This document shows, piece by piece, positions 24,606-39,238 of a stretch of 64,000 bases of DNA. The notes beneath the pieces are model-generated. The model searched no databases. It saw nothing but the letters and a program-made list of their open reading frames with translations, and had not been told where the DNA came from. The stretch is taken from positions 1 through 64,000 of the forward strand of contig NZ_ACJM01000013.1 of NCBI RefSeq assembly GCF_000174415.1. Reading direction: 5' to 3'. Both the position numbers and the translations under genes were made by a program. This stretch comes from Dethiobacter alkaliphilus AHT 1 (GTDB lineage: Bacteria; Bacillota; Dethiobacteria; Dethiobacterales; Dethiobacteraceae). How positions within the stretch are numbered: position 1 is the first letter of the stretch; each line of letters begins with the position of its first letter.

Positions 24606-24617
24606 AAATTTCAGATA

Positions 24618-24742
24618 TTCCTTCAGGGTCAGGTGAGAAGGCAAAGTCCTTCAATTCCGAACCGGCGGTATAGCCCGCGAGCACTAAGCTGATCCGGTGA
24701 AATTCCGGAGCCGACAGTATAGTCTGGATGGGAGAAGGAGTT
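24618..24742 (+). promoter_or_regulatory. FMN riboswitch (RFN element)
   Basis: The conserved RFN blocks appear in order: CTTCAGGGTCAGGTG at the 5' side, TTCCGAACCGGCGGTATAGCC, GCCCGCGAGC, GATCCGGTGAAATTCCGGAGCC, and the 3' block GTCTGGATGGGAGAAGGAG that pairs with the first to form P1. FMN binding is expected to favour the downstream terminator and so reduce ribDEBAH expression. Confidence 0.96.
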
Positions 24743-24759
24743 ATGTTTCCTATGTCATC

Positions 24760-33860: not shown

Positions 33861-34712
33861 TTACTGAGTCCACTCGCTTACTTTATCCTGGTTTTCATCA
33901 ACCCACTGCCTTGCGGCTTCTGCTGGATTCATGCCGTCTTCAATCAGTACCATTACTTCCGACATATCATCGGGAGTCCAGTTGAAGTTATCTAACACGG
34001 AATAAACTTCAGGCATATCTTCTTCCAGGTTCTGGCGCACAAGGGTGTGGACATATTCGTCACCACCATAGATGTTCAGGGGATCTTCCAGGTACTTCAG
34101 GTCCCAGCGGGCAAACTTCCAGTGGGGAGTCCAGCCGGTAACAACAATGGGCTCATTGTGCTCTACCGCTTCGGCCAGGCTGGCGGCCATGGTGGCACCG
34201 GAACCCTGGAGCAGTTCAATATTATCCAGTCCATATTCTTCTACTACCACTTCGGTTGCCTGCTGCAGTCCTGCACCCGGCTCGATACCAACGATTTGAC
34301 CGTCAAACATGTCTGCATTTTCGTTTAGCTCTTCAATGCTGTCGATATCAACGTATTCAGGAACCACAAGCCCAATACGGGTACCCACCAGGTTAGCTCC
34401 CAAATCCACAACGCTGTCTTCAATCTCGGCAAAATAGTCGCCATGAGTGGTGGGTAACCAGGCGGCCACCATACCATCATAGTCTCCCTCGCCCAGTGAT
34501 GTATACATCACTGCCGGGGAAAGAGACATCAACTCTACATCATAGCCTAAATCTTCCAACACAGTTGCTACCACGTTGGTGCTGGCAATCTCGGAGTCCC
34601 ACTCCACGTAACCCAGGGTCACACTTTGGTCATCAGTTCCGCAGCCGGTAACAGCAAACAACATTGCCGCCACCAAAACTACCCCTAACAATACTTTCCA
34701 AGAACTTCTCAT
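33861..34712 (-). CDS. opuAC: Glycine betaine/proline ABC transporter substrate-binding lipoprotein
   Basis: A 283-residue extracytoplasmic solute receptor. The signal peptide ends in the lipobox AVTGC, with Cys24 as the lipidation site. The mature part is an OpuAC/ProX-type type-II periplasmic fold (VTLGYVEWDSEIASTNVVATVLEDLGYDVEL). Trp residues that could build the aromatic cage for a quaternary amine are visible in YVEWDS, AAWLPTTHGDY, VTGWTPHWKF. It is the third gene of a minus-strand operon with permease and ATPase. The ligand (glycine betaine or a relative) is inferred from the family. Confidence 0.92.
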   Translation of the reverse strand: MRSSWKVLLGVVLVAAMLFAVTGCGTDDQSVTLGYVEWDSEIASTNVVATVLEDLGYDVELMSLSPAVMYTSLGEGDYDGMVAAWLPTTHGDYFAEIEDSVVDLGANLVGTRIGLVVPEYVDIDSIEELNENADMFDGQIVGIEPGAGLQQATEVVVEEYGLDNIELLQGSGATMAASLAEAVEHNEPIVVTGWTPHWKFARWDLKYLEDPLNIYGGDEYVHTLVRQNLEEDMPEVYSVLDNFNWTPDDMSEVMVLIEDGMNPAEAARQWVDENQDKVSEWTQ

Positions 34713-34718
34713 CGTTTG

Positions 34719-35561
34719 TTATCCCTCCTGTATTTTTTTACTTCTATTAATTAATCCATGCGAGATGCGATCCAGAATAATGGCGAGGATAACCACCGCC
34801 AGGCCGCCTTCAAAGCCCAGGCCCACATCCAGTGTCTGAATGCCGCTCCAAACCACCCGGCCAAGTCCACCGGCTCCCACCATGGCAGCGATAACAGCCA
34901 TGGAAAGAGCTAACATAATACACTGGTTGACACCGGCCATAATGGTGGGCAATGCCAACGGCAGCTGTACTTTTATTAGCTTTTGCCTGGGTGTAGCACC
35001 AAAGGAATCTGCAGCTTCAATCAGTTCCGTAGGTACCTGGCGGATGCCAAGATTAGTTAGGCGAATGGTGGGAGGCACAGAAAAGATGAATGTGGCCACA
35101 ATTGCGGGGACCGAGCCTACTCTGAAAAACATCACGGCAGGGATTAAATAAACAAATGCCGGCATTGTCTGCATTAAATCAAGGACTGGAGTTACATAAC
35201 TGTTAATTCTGTTGCTTCGGGCGCAGGCAATGCCCAGAGGTATACCGATCACCAGTGAGATGAAAGTAGCAACCAGCACCAGCACAAATGTTATGAGCAA
35301 GTCAGGCCAGAGCCCGAGATTTTCAATGAGCAGAAAACCAAAAAGAGTTAACAGAGCTGTTTTCCGGTTTGTAAGTTTCCATACCAACAAGGAAAGCAGT
35401 AAAATTAATATTAATGGATGTACAGATCCTAAGAGGTTGATAAGCCCGGAAACAATGGATGATAAAATATCCGACATGCCGCGCAAAACTGGACGGAAGT
35501 TTGTCCGAATCATAGCAATAAGCCATTCTACAGCATCGCCTAACGGAATTTTAGGAAACAT
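34719..35561 (-). CDS. opuAB: Glycine betaine/proline ABC transporter permease
   Basis: A 280-residue membrane component of an OpuA/ProW-type importer with about six to seven helices. The cytosolic coupling loop is [32 protein letters not shown], the EAA-type sequence that contacts the ATPase. The early segment [31 protein letters not shown] is typical of ProW. ATG 35561 lies behind AAAGGAGGTATCAGACC and overlaps the end of the ATPase gene by 11 bp. A six-base gap separates it from the receptor gene. Confidence 0.93.
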
Positions 35562-36750
35562 GGTCTGATACCTCCTTTCCTGCAATGCCGGAAAGCAAAG
35601 CTCCACGAACAATAATACCTTTTAATTGCTCTTTTTCATTTACCACACTGATGGGATAGCTGGCAGTAGCAGAAATCGGGACAATATCAGACAACGGTGT
35701 TTCTAGATTTACCACAGGCAGTTCCGTTATTAAAATAGATTCCAGGTTCTGTTGATTTTCTTTGATGGCGGTTGCGGCGGCATCGGCGGTAATCAGGCCT
35801 TTAAGGGTTTTGTCCTTACTCAAAACAAAAATAGTGGAGATGCCGTAGTCGCGCATTTTCTTCAAGGCAGTATTGGGTCCGTCTTTTGGGGTAACAAAGA
35901 CATCCACCTTTTTCATTACCCCTTCAGCAGTGAGGACCTTGGTACGATCCACACCCTGGACAAACTCCTGCACGTAATCATCGGCAGGTGATTCCAGAAT
36001 TTCCTCCGGCGTTCCTACTTGTACAATGTAGCCGTCTTTCATTACAGCAATTCTGTCTCCCAGTTTGAGAGCTTCATCTAAATCATGGGTGATAAATAAT
36101 ATGGTTTTTTGCATTTGTTCCTGCAGTTCCAGCAATTCGTCCTGCATCTCCCGTTTAATCAGGGGGTCCAGGGCACTAAAAGCTTCATCCATCAAAAGGA
36201 TTTCCGGATCAAGGGCCAGAGCCCGTGCCAGGCCGACGCGCTGCTGCATGCCGCCGCTGAGATGATTGGGGTATTTTTCTTCCCAACCTTTCAGGCCAAC
36301 CGTTTCCAGTGTTTCTAAGGCAATACGGTGGCGTTCTTCCTTTGCCATGTCCTGAATTTCCAATCCGAACTCAACATTTTCAGCAATTGTTTTATGGGGA
36401 AAAAGGGCAAAACGCTGAAAAACCATGCCGAATTTTTTTCTGCGGAATTCACGAAGTTCCGCATCACTTAATTTGGTTAAATCCGTACCGTCAATGAGGA
36501 CTTCGCCGGCAGAAGGGGCTATCAGGCGATTAATACAACGAATAAGAGTTGATTTTCCGCTTCCTGAGAGGCCCACAATAACAAAACACTCACCCTGTTT
36601 GATTTCCAGGTTAATGTTGTTTAAGCCGATGGCCATGCCGGTTTTTCTCATAATTTCATCTTTTGACATTCCTGATTTGGAAAGTTCTATAGCCTTTTTG
36701 GTATTTCGGCCAAAGACTTTATATAAATCCTTGATAACAATTTGGCTCAA
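35551..36750 (-). CDS. opuAA: Glycine betaine/proline ABC transporter ATP-binding protein with tandem CBS domains
   Basis: A 399-residue ATPase of the OpuAA/ProV class. Residues about 1-275 hold the ABC domain with the family-specific YKVFGRN start, Walker [11 protein letters not shown]-loop [11 protein letters not shown], signature [16 protein letters not shown] and Walker [14 protein letters not shown]. The C-terminal 120 residues are two CBS domains ([18 protein letters not shown] and the part from [18 protein letters not shown]), which in relatives sense ionic strength or c-di-AMP. TTG 36750 is behind AAAGGA and gives the usual [14 protein letters not shown] start. The longer frame to 36804 enters the leader terminator. 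Confidence 0.92.
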
Positions 36751-36783
36751 AAGTATCAATCCTTTCCAGTGGATTTCGGAAAT

Positions 36784-36824
36784 AAAAAAAGCCCGGTACT
36801 CCACTCTCTAAAGAGAGTTAGAGT
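36784..36824 (-). terminator. Terminator-like hairpin at the end of the opu leader
   Basis: On the minus strand ACTCT (with a bulged A) ACTCTC - TTTA - GAGAGT GGAGT makes an 11-bp stem. The T7 run comes 7 nt after the stem instead of directly. It may end the structured RNA or act as an attenuator 34 bp before the opuAA start. Confidence 0.5.
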
Positions 36825-37071
36825 GCCTAGACTTCGCCATTGCTGACTCGCCTTATGCCACATCACTGACATAGCATATCCAAGCCCGTGATTCACGAAC
36901 TTTGGCAGACCCCAGTTCTCATGTCGTTTTTCCCGTTTAGGTTTTGGCCCGTAATCTTTGCTTACCTGCAACTGCTTTGTCTGCCTGAGTCATGAAAGCA
37001 TTTGCCGGCTCGCAAAGCGCCTACTGCCTAAAGGTACTTCACCACAAGCTAAAACTATTTAGTATTTCCAA
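36784..37071 (-). ncRNA. Structured leader or noncoding RNA upstream of the opu operon (class not identified)
   Basis: Between the promoter at 37078-37106 and opuAA lies a leader of about 320 nt without a convincing gene. On the minus strand, TGACTC (36992-36987) pairs with GAGTCA (36849-36844), and just inside it GGCAGAC (36985-36979) pairs with GTCTGCC (36910-36904). The stems are nested and nearly stacked. The 3' branch holds two hairpins: CGTG-AAT-CACG (36897-36887) and TATGTC...GGCATA (36873-36854). A further hairpin TTTGC-GAGCCG-GCAAA lies near 37003-37017. No match to the c-di-AMP, T-box or FMN consensus that I remember. A large Clostridial RNA class such as raiA is possible but not verified. 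Confidence 0.6.
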
Positions 37072-37077
37072 TAATAA

Positions 37078-37106
37078 ATTTTATCAAACATCAAACTTTT
37101 TGTCAA
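37078..37106 (-). promoter_or_regulatory. Sigma-A promoter of the structured leader / opu operon
   Basis: On the minus strand a perfect TTGACA (37106-37101) and TAAAAT (37083-37078) are separated by 17 bp. Transcription would start near 37071. This is one of the best sigma-A promoters in the window. Confidence 0.8.
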
Positions 37107-37213: not shown

Positions 37214-37231
37214 TTGGCATGATTATTGCAA
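37214..37231 (+). promoter_or_regulatory. Sigma-54 (RpoN) promoter of acetoacetyl-CoA synthetase
   Basis: TTGGCATGATTATTGCA carries the invariant GG at 37216-37217 and GC at 37228-37229 with exactly 10 bp between, close to the consensus TGGCACN5TTGCW. It lies 55 bp before the start codon. A weak inverted repeat TCTC-AAAA-GAGA at 37126-37137, about 90 bp upstream, could be part of an activator site. Confidence 0.8.
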
Positions 37232-37285
37232 AATTACTGTAGGAGAGGCCCGTCCGGGTTAATAAAGAGAAGGAGGAGGATACTT

Positions 37286-39238
37286 ATGAAACAACCGCTA
37301 TGGAAACCCAGTCCTGAGCGCAAAGAACAAACCAACATGACGGACTTTATGAGGTTGGTTAATGACCGGTTTGGCAAAAATTTCAGCGAATATGATGAGC
37401 TGTATGCCTGGTCTGTTGAAAATATTGAAGACTTCTGGGCATTGATGTGGGAGTACGGAGGGATTGTGGCTTCCAAACCGTATGACCGTGTGGTTGATAA
37501 TTTGGATGATATGTTTAACAGTGAATGGTTCCCCGGAGCCCGGTTGAATTTTGCCGAGAACCTGCTGCGTTTTCGAGATGACCGTACTGCCATGGTTTTT
37601 AAAGGGGAAGCTGATGAACAGCGGCGTATATCGTACCGTGAACTTTATGACATGGTTGCGCGGCTTGCCAAATCGCTACGGGAGCATGGGGTAGGCATTG
37701 GAGACCGGGTGGCCGGTTTTATGCCCAATATGATAGAAACTGTGGCGGCAATGCTGGCTGCCAGCAGTATCGGGGCTATCTGGTCATCCTGTTCACCGGA
37801 TTTTGGCTTCCAGGGCGTAATGGACCGCTTCGGGCAAATTCAACCCAAGGTGCTGTTTGCCGCCAACGGTTATTCGTACAACGGCAAAAAATTTGACTCC
37901 CTGGAAAAGGTGAGCGAAATAACCAAGTCCATTCCGGAAGTGGAAAAAGTGGTGATTGTCCCTTATACCGAATCTAATCCGGATTTAGGCGGAATTCGGG
38001 GAGCGGTGATGCTGGATGATTTTCTTGCCAAAGAGCAGGGGCTGGAAATAGAATTTACCCAGCTGCCCTTTGAGCATCCCCTCTATATCATGTATTCATC
38101 GGGGACCACCGGAGTTCCCAAGTGTATTGTGCACGGTGCCGGCGGCACGCTGATTCAGCATTTAAAAGAGCTGATTCTCCATACCGATCTGTCCCGTGAA
38201 GACACCATCTTTTATTTCACCACCTGCGGTTGGATGATGTGGAACTGGTTGGTCTCTTCGCTGGCGGTGGGGGCTACGGTGGTGCTCTTTGACGGCTCGC
38301 CGTTCTATCCCGAGCCTGGCGCCCTGTTTAAGCTGGCCATGGATGAGGAGATTACCGTTTTTGGCACCAGTGCCAAGTACATCTCCGCAGCGGAGCAATT
38401 TGGCGTAAAGCCCAGGGAAAACTATGACCTGGAGCCGTTAAAAGCCATTTTGTCCACCGGCTCACCTCTGTCAGTGGACAGTTTCCATTATGTTTACCGC
38501 GATATTAAGGAAGATCTGTGCCTCTCGTCCATCTCCGGCGGAACAGACATCATTTCCTGCTTTGCCCTGGGTAACCCCAATGGCCCGGTTTACTCCGGTG
38601 AACTGCAGTGCAGGGGTTTGGGTATGAAGGTGGAAGCCTATGATCTGGAAGGAAAGCCGGTGGTGGGGGAAAAGGGTGAGTTGGTTTGCACCGCAGCTTT
38701 TCCCTCCATGCCCATCTATTTCTGGAATGATGAAGACGATAAAAAATACCTGGGCGCCTACTTTGAAACGTATCCCGGCATCTGGCATCACGGCGATTAC
38801 GTGGAAGTAACGGAAAACGGCGGCATGATTTTCTACGGCCGCTCAGATGCCACTTTAAATCCCGGCGGTGTAAGGATTGGTACTGCGGAGATTTACCGTC
38901 AGGTGGAGGCCATGCCCCAGGTGGCCGACAGTCTGGTTGTGGGCCAGGAATGGGATAATGACGTTCGTGTTGTTTTGTTTGTAAAACTGGAGGATGGCAC
39001 CGAACTTAGCGAGGATTTGATTAAAGAAATCAAGACCAATATCCGCAAAAACGCCACCCCGCGCCATGTGCCGGAGCGCATAATCCAGATTACCGATATC
39101 CCCTACACCATTAACGGTAAGAAAGTGGAGATTGCCGTAAAGCGGGTTATCCATGGAGAAGATGTCCCCAACAAGGATGCCCTGGCCAATCCGGAGGCGT
39201 TGGATCTTTATAAAGACATCCCCGAGCTATCGGCTTAA
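37286..39238 (+). CDS. Acetoacetate-CoA ligase (acetoacetyl-CoA synthetase)
   Basis: An ATP-dependent activator of acetoacetate, 650 residues, of the acyl-adenylate (ANL) superfamily. Family-typical features: WFPGARLNFAENLL near residue 76, the AMP-binding P-loop YSSGTTGVPKCIVHG, TTCGWMMWNWLVSSLAVGA, SISGGTDI, and the C-terminal GRSDATLNPGGVRIGTAEIYR hinge and NGKKVEIAVKR with the catalytic Lys. Length and motifs separate it from acetyl-CoA synthetase. ATG 37286 follows AAGGAGGAGG. A sigma-54 promoter precedes it and a terminator follows, so it is monocistronic. A role in using acetoacetate or ketone bodies is inferred. Confidence 0.92.
   Translation: MKQPLWKPSPERKEQTNMTDFMRLVNDRFGKNFSEYDELYAWSVENIEDFWALMWEYGGIVASKPYDRVVDNLDDMFNSEWFPGARLNFAENLLRFRDDRTAMVFKGEADEQRRISYRELYDMVARLAKSLREHGVGIGDRVAGFMPNMIETVAAMLAASSIGAIWSSCSPDFGFQGVMDRFGQIQPKVLFAANGYSYNGKKFDSLEKVSEITKSIPEVEKVVIVPYTESNPDLGGIRGAVMLDDFLAKEQGLEIEFTQLPFEHPLYIMYSSGTTGVPKCIVHGAGGTLIQHLKELILHTDLSREDTIFYFTTCGWMMWNWLVSSLAVGATVVLFDGSPFYPEPGALFKLAMDEEITVFGTSAKYISAAEQFGVKPRENYDLEPLKAILSTGSPLSVDSFHYVYRDIKEDLCLSSISGGTDIISCFALGNPNGPVYSGELQCRGLGMKVEAYDLEGKPVVGEKGELVCTAAFPSMPIYFWNDEDDKKYLGAYFETYPGIWHHGDYVEVTENGGMIFYGRSDATLNPGGVRIGTAEIYRQVEAMPQVADSLVVGQEWDNDVRVVLFVKLEDGTELSEDLIKEIKTNIRKNATPRHVPERIIQITDIPYTINGKKVEIAVKRVIHGEDVPNKDALANPEALDLYKDIPELSA

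Follow-up and report, generated by a model that had tools for sequence, protein, structure and literature searches.

The window, by which we mean the whole 64,000-nt stretch of Dethiobacter alkaliphilus DNA analysed here, carries on its minus strand a glycine betaine transporter operon and, in front of it, a long leader with the following features:

37078..37106, minus strand: sigma-A promoter, TTGACA-17-TAAAAT with a TG before the -10 box (11 of 12 consensus matches)
36784..37072, minus strand: leader RNA, from a start at ~37072 (placed from the promoter) to the end of the U-run
36784..36832, minus strand: intrinsic terminator with its U-run at 36790-36784 (-19.6 kcal/mol)
35551..36750, minus strand: opuAA/ProV, ATPase of a glycine betaine ABC transporter (TIGR01186, 471.6 bits, cut-off 326.6)
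33861..35612, minus strand: remainder of the operon, a permease (34719-35612) and a substrate-binding protein (33861-34712), both identified by reading the translations

The promoter, a leader of about 320 nt without a convincing gene and a terminator-like hairpin before opuAA had all been proposed in the initial annotation of this region, and all three are borne out, the leader being free of a convincing gene up to the opuAA start codon (TTG at 36750, with GGAAAGG upstream). An alternative GTG start at 36804, present in the list of open reading frames, falls inside the terminator. The transcript would either stop at the U-run or read through into opuAA. The leader folds better than its own shuffled versions (z -3.68). 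Across the promoter region lies a divergent gene (37226-39238, plus strand), which from its translation reads as acetoacetyl-CoA synthetase-like, while another stretch of the window (24615-24743, plus strand) contains an ordinary FMN riboswitch (RF00050, 100.7 bits) upstream of what look like ribD and ribE.

The cmscan search proposed in the initial annotation was run against Rfam 15, and no class matched the leader, even at E-values up to 10; a snoRNA match reported upstream of the leader at this permissive threshold is meaningless. No Rfam match was obtained for the RNA at other loci, where matches at E-values up to 1 are due to chance (e.g. miRNA models on perfect terminator hairpins). No description of the RNA was found in open-licence papers, preprints excluded, and an earlier description elsewhere is possible.

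The leader belongs to a family of structured RNAs of ~250 nt (window member: minus strand, 37046-36791), found at ~105 loci in Bacillota, Fusobacteriota and one spirochaete metagenome-assembled genome (MAG). DNA searches within the class of the window showed that opuAA is preceded by related leaders in further genera and families. A covariance model (R1) built from an alignment of thirteen leaders matched 12 of 98 genomes of this class and 30 of 398 genomes drawn evenly from the phylum. An exact DNA pattern covering only 29-49 nt of the 3' end identified 43 stretches in 84,980 species genomes, some of them on the same contigs as loci already found. R1 confirmed the complete structure in 41 of the 43, and rejected the pattern matches from a member of Bacteroidales (L076) and from Sulfurovum (L078). 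The carriers include a Dethiobacter alkaliphilus MAG from the class of the window, Clostridium ganghwense, Fusibacter paucivorans, Fusibacter ferrireducens, Thermincola, MAGs of Tepidibacillus and Thermoanaerobacter, Fusobacterium mortiferum, one Spirochaetia MAG, and Propionigenium maris with three copies. In the class that includes Clostridium sp. ZS2-4, the refined model R2 matched 14 of 391 genomes; it also matched 17 of 98 Fusobacteriota (up to four copies per genome), and among 198 Spirochaetota it found the starting MAG only. The RNA was found neither by the exact-pattern scan of viral contigs nor by blastn searches of plasmids and phages. The genome of the window contains exactly two copies according to the R2 search; the second one (L016 / L121, G000:C8:32475-32713, minus strand) precedes a gene for the substrate-binding protein of a polar amino-acid ABC transporter.

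The covarying domain encompasses ~215 nt between the promoter and the gene. Its 5' part forms one long irregular arm (P1 - AGUA/GAA - P2 - AGUA/GAAA - P3 - P4), and its 3' part consists of three hairpins (P5, P6 and P7):

36817..37046, minus strand: conserved domain P1-P7 plus the 5' arm of the terminator (model R3, 141.3 bits, E-value 1.2e-31)
36925..37043, minus strand: 5' domain closed by P1 (37043-37041 with 36927-36925), a covarying helix with 93.7% of cells paired; 2 of 3 pairs form in the window
37035..37038, minus strand: AGUA opposite GAA (36932-36930), the first internal loop, in near-invariant columns
36933..37034, minus strand: P2 (37034-37027 with 36941-36933), two-sided changes in 8 of 8 pairs
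37022..37025, minus strand: second AGUA opposite a conserved GAAA, the second internal loop
36946..37021, minus strand: P3 (37021-37018 with 36949-36946), with tree-based covariation
36956..37017, minus strand: P4a (37017-37012 with 36961-36956), 6 of 6 pairs in the window
36964..37009, minus strand: P4b hairpin (37009-36996 with 36977-36964), 89.8% paired, 12 of 13 pairs in the window
36910..36920, minus strand: linker GAGAACUGGGG, strongly conserved
36879..36906, minus strand: P5 hairpin, 87% of cells paired, 6 of 10 pairs in the window
36854..36878, minus strand: P6 hairpin, 96% of cells paired, 10 of 10 pairs in the window
36829..36853, minus strand: P7 hairpin with a GA/GAA internal loop and the conserved GAGUC, 96% of cells paired, 7 of 7 pairs in the window

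The two AGUA internal loops look like bulged-G or loop-E-like motifs. The structure listed here was assembled by hand and replaced a first-pass RNAalifold fold, which had missed P3 and P4a; P4a covaries by inspection and is poorly aligned by MAFFT. A pseudoknot between GAGU and ACUC was considered and set aside, being too invariant for a covariation test and broken in some members. In two loci (L036 and L038) the linker GAGAACUGGGG reads GGAAAGUGG-like and GAGUC/GGC reads UAGUC/GAC; they possibly represent a variant of ligand specificity.

Two long-range stems on which the initial annotation had based its structural argument are exactly complementary, as claimed (UGACUC/GAGUCA and GGCAGAC/GUCUGCC), but have no structural meaning. 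Distant complementarities of this length occur in the leader at chance level (6 bp: 4 observed vs 6.8 expected from shuffles; 7 bp: 1 vs 1.6), and of 42 aligned homologues the window alone has both stems intact, the proportion of paired cells being ~51%. Their 5' segments fall within a variable part of the conserved P4 arm, its apical loop (36995-36978, in P4b). We have therefore dropped them from the structure.

The existence of a conserved folded domain is strongly supported by covariation, which the initial annotation had proposed to look for among relatives and which is present in all three alignments analysed. In A1 (13 leaders, aligned by sequence only), two-sided compensatory changes occur in 31 of 66 predicted pairs. 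In A3, a sequence-only MAFFT alignment of 42 members on which P1-P7 were placed by hand (P3 and P4a from covariation and inspection), 87.4% of 2530 cells are paired, 52 of 61 pairs show two-sided changes and the covariation score is 0.662, compared with 66%, 41.5 and 0.260 in shuffled controls and at most 43.4% paired and a score of at most 0.158 when the structure is slid along the alignment. Since the structure was partly derived from these same sequences, we repeated the count without the class of the window (A4, 29 members), which gave a covariation score of 0.622 vs 0.267 in shuffles, and built the model R3 from members outside this class alone. R3 identified blindly both the window domain, with the score listed above, and its paralogue in the same genome (133.9 bits). 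Under a null model in which substitutions are replayed on the tree (re-implemented by us after R-scape, with a conservative tail), pairs with E < 0.05 were found in P2, P3, P4 and P5, among them the P3 pair 37020-36947 (E 0.006). Also in P3, alignment columns 28-131 are paired in 41 of 41 rows.

The elements flanking the domain are conserved as well. A promoter-like site with at least 9 of 12 consensus matches lies upstream of P1 in 100 of 105 copies, and a terminator, beginning at the P7 3' strand or within it, follows directly 3' of the domain in nearly all 105 loci; our script called it in 100 of them, trimming the hairpin at an internal T-run in a handful of the called copies, where the full sequences do show the hairpin. 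The 5' arm of the terminator, ACUCUA, is near-invariant (95-97 of 97 members per position), while its partner changes from A to G in ~20%, which suggests that this arm could have a second partner or role. In the window the 5' foot of the terminator (GUCU, 36832-36829) doubles as the 3' strand of P7. An overlap of 3 nt or more between the terminator and this strand is seen in 26 of 97 members, including the window by its fold. P7 and the full terminator would be mutually exclusive in these members; as the overlap is confined to 26 of 97, such competition cannot be the general switch. A search for an antiterminator by duplex energy, with the terminator 5' arm against the whole domain, returned no region that beats permuted arms. 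A pairing of UUUAGGGUG with CACUCUAA, involving the P6/P7 strand, is good in some clades and lost in Fusobacteriota, and we do not claim it.

The genes that follow the RNA form a strikingly coherent set concerned with compatible solutes and transport. The first downstream genes of the 105 loci, which include a few near-identical ones, encode 31 polar amino-acid ABC binding proteins, 25 ProV-type ATPases, 21 BCCT transporters, 16 KamA proteins (lysine 2,3-aminomutase), 6 APC permeases, 2 acetyltransferases and 2 threonine-synthase-like proteins, with hpt (a weak match) and a D-Ala-D-Ala ligase gene found once each. Representatives pass the NCBIfam cut-offs for AblA, AblB, EhuB (ectoine binding, L035), BCCT and ProV. 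AblA and AblB together synthesize N-acetyl-beta-lysine, and the one acetyltransferase tested is AblB. The solved relatives nearest to the binding protein of the amino-acid ABC system are amino-acid binding proteins. Because gene context was not used in the search, its coherence is independent evidence that the matches are real. In one genome (L131 and L146, G605:C145:23832-26031) two copies lie on opposite strands ~1.7 kb apart, one before kamA and the other before a gene for an amino-acid ABC binding protein; this transporter may supply lysine for the synthesis of beta-lysine. Two other copies (L085 and L142) precede a gene for a threonine-synthase-like PLP-domain protein, which in L085 has an additional C-terminal GNAT domain and is possibly another osmolyte enzyme. 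Off the osmolyte theme are the D-Ala-D-Ala ligase (L163) and the hypoxanthine phosphoribosyltransferase preceded by a weak, shortened RNA (L056).

We interpret the leader as a member of a new class of cis-regulatory RNAs, most probably a riboswitch that controls termination ahead of compatible-solute genes, and estimate the probability of this reading at roughly two in three. That the element is a conserved cis-acting attenuator is highly probable in our view, and a small-ligand riboswitch is likely. The initial annotation had envisaged either an osmolyte- or nucleotide-sensing riboswitch or an RNA reading into opu, without being able to place it in a class; the conserved covarying leader, the terminator, the osmolyte genes and the absence of an Rfam family agree with this, whereas the argument from the two stems was wrong. 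According to the proposed mechanism, the domain would bind a small signal of the osmotic state and this binding would decide whether the terminator forms. The ligand probably promotes read-through, and opuA would be transcribed when the cell needs osmoprotectant.

As to the nature of the signal, genes for betaines, ectoine and acetyl-beta-lysine stand under one RNA, so a single organic osmolyte is a less fitting candidate than a general signal, for example an ion, and we put the chance that the ligand is of this general or ionic kind at about even. At one locus (L025:1243-1749) the new RNA, with its terminator and opuA, comes immediately after a c-di-AMP riboswitch (78.1 bits) and a hairpin resembling a terminator. 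Two RNA elements in series normally sense two things. From this single tandem, together with the chemical diversity of the solutes, an ion or a general osmotic signal appears more likely as the ligand than c-di-AMP or a single osmolyte. The tandem is possibly a natural two-input gate, by analogy with the tandem of Na+ and c-di-AMP riboswitches before the lysine 2,3-aminomutase gene kamA in Dehalobacter, which acts as such a gate (PMC9337991). We tentatively propose, at slightly less than even odds, an undescribed class of large riboswitches by which an ion or a new osmotic signal would switch on the whole compatible-solute programme (betaine, ectoine and N-acetyl-beta-lysine) in Bacillota and Fusobacteriota, sometimes in a two-input gate with a c-di-AMP riboswitch.

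The main gene groups all import or make compatible solutes, which is also what would be predicted for feedback control by a riboswitch that turns expression off, the terminator forming when one organic osmolyte (e.g. glycine betaine or N-acetyl-beta-lysine) has accumulated. We consider this rather unlikely: the solutes (betaines, ectoine-type compounds and beta-lysine derivatives) are chemically unlike each other, and one selective aptamer would not suffice unless a shared precursor is sensed. Loop-E-like motifs often bind proteins, and the presence of two of them in an RNA of this large size would suit a protein reader, i.e. an RNA-binding antiterminator or repressor, in place of a small ligand. 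No regulator gene accompanies the RNA at the loci read, and the internal loops and the linker (GAGAACUGGGG, GAGUC/GGCGAA) are strictly conserved in three phyla, as is typical of aptamers, which makes such a reader improbable. An amino-acid riboswitch, for lysine for instance (AblA acts on lysine, and the amino-acid ABC system perhaps does so too), would account for the 31 amino-acid ABC binding proteins, 16 KamA proteins and 6 APC permeases, and for the genome in which one copy precedes kamA and another the gene for the binding protein (L131 and L146). Nonetheless, the set also holds 25 glycine betaine ABC genes and 21 BCCT genes, which are not amino-acid genes, and the Rfam lysine riboswitch has no match at the leader, so we regard this possibility as doubtful. 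A strong terminator before the gene would yield a discrete transcript of ~290 nt, as expected of a stand-alone small RNA with incidental read-through, but the RNA is almost always followed directly by an osmolyte or transport gene, consistently so in three phyla, and the stand-alone function also considered in the initial annotation is very unlikely to be the main one. Hardly credible, finally, is a known class in divergent form (c-di-AMP, Na+-I, T-box or lysine), as although its terminator logic would be similar and its gene neighbourhood is shared (kamA of Dehalobacter stands behind Na+-I and c-di-AMP riboswitches; PMC9337991), neither the leader nor the RNA elsewhere matches Rfam, a genuine c-di-AMP riboswitch adjoins one copy as a separate element, and Na+-I occurs in just 1 of 64 carrier genomes.

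The riboswitch that we propose as the most probable reading is new in that the RNA is found in neither Rfam 15 nor the open-licence papers searched, and it combines two loop-E-like motifs in series with, in one case, a tandem with a c-di-AMP riboswitch. It is only partly known by what means bacteria register osmotic stress when they adjust gene expression. An RNA fold conserved across phyla before genes for osmoprotectant uptake and synthesis offers a direct handle on this sensing: to identify its ligand would be to name an osmotic signal inside the cell. Alignment, consensus structure and carrier list suffice as a basis for binding work.

Among the known systems, the c-di-AMP riboswitch (ydaO/yuaA, RF00379) resembles the new family in being a large leader with an intrinsic terminator before osmotic genes, which can include opu-type operons. 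It differs in its helices, its model matches neither the leader nor the RNA elsewhere at the gathering score, and it stands as a separate element in the tandem; c-di-AMP riboswitches occur in 28 of 63 carrier genomes, and the genome of the window has none. The Na+-I riboswitch (DUF1646 motif, RF03071) likewise regulates osmolyte synthesis (e.g. lysine 2,3-aminomutase) and can form tandems with c-di-AMP riboswitches (PMC9337991). Its model does not match the leader and has 55 positions, as opposed to ~215 in the new family, which in addition has no antiporter or ATPase gene in first downstream position at any of the 105 loci. The lysine, purine and T-box leaders share with the new family the succession of promoter, conserved folded domain, terminator and gene, but the new family has its own fold, matched by none of these models: T-box (RF00230) does not match at the RNA, although it does find T-boxes elsewhere in L077 and L023, and the lysine riboswitch (RF00168), found elsewhere in L089, does not match at the leader. 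The proX motif (SRC-29-1, RNA Biol. 2021) is an orphan riboswitch candidate located in front of a gene for glycine betaine/proline betaine transport, with 17 representatives, mainly from Spiribacter, and translational control by a masked ribosome site (PMC8632094). This description sets it apart from the new family, whose members come from Bacillota and Fusobacteriota and have a terminator at their end.
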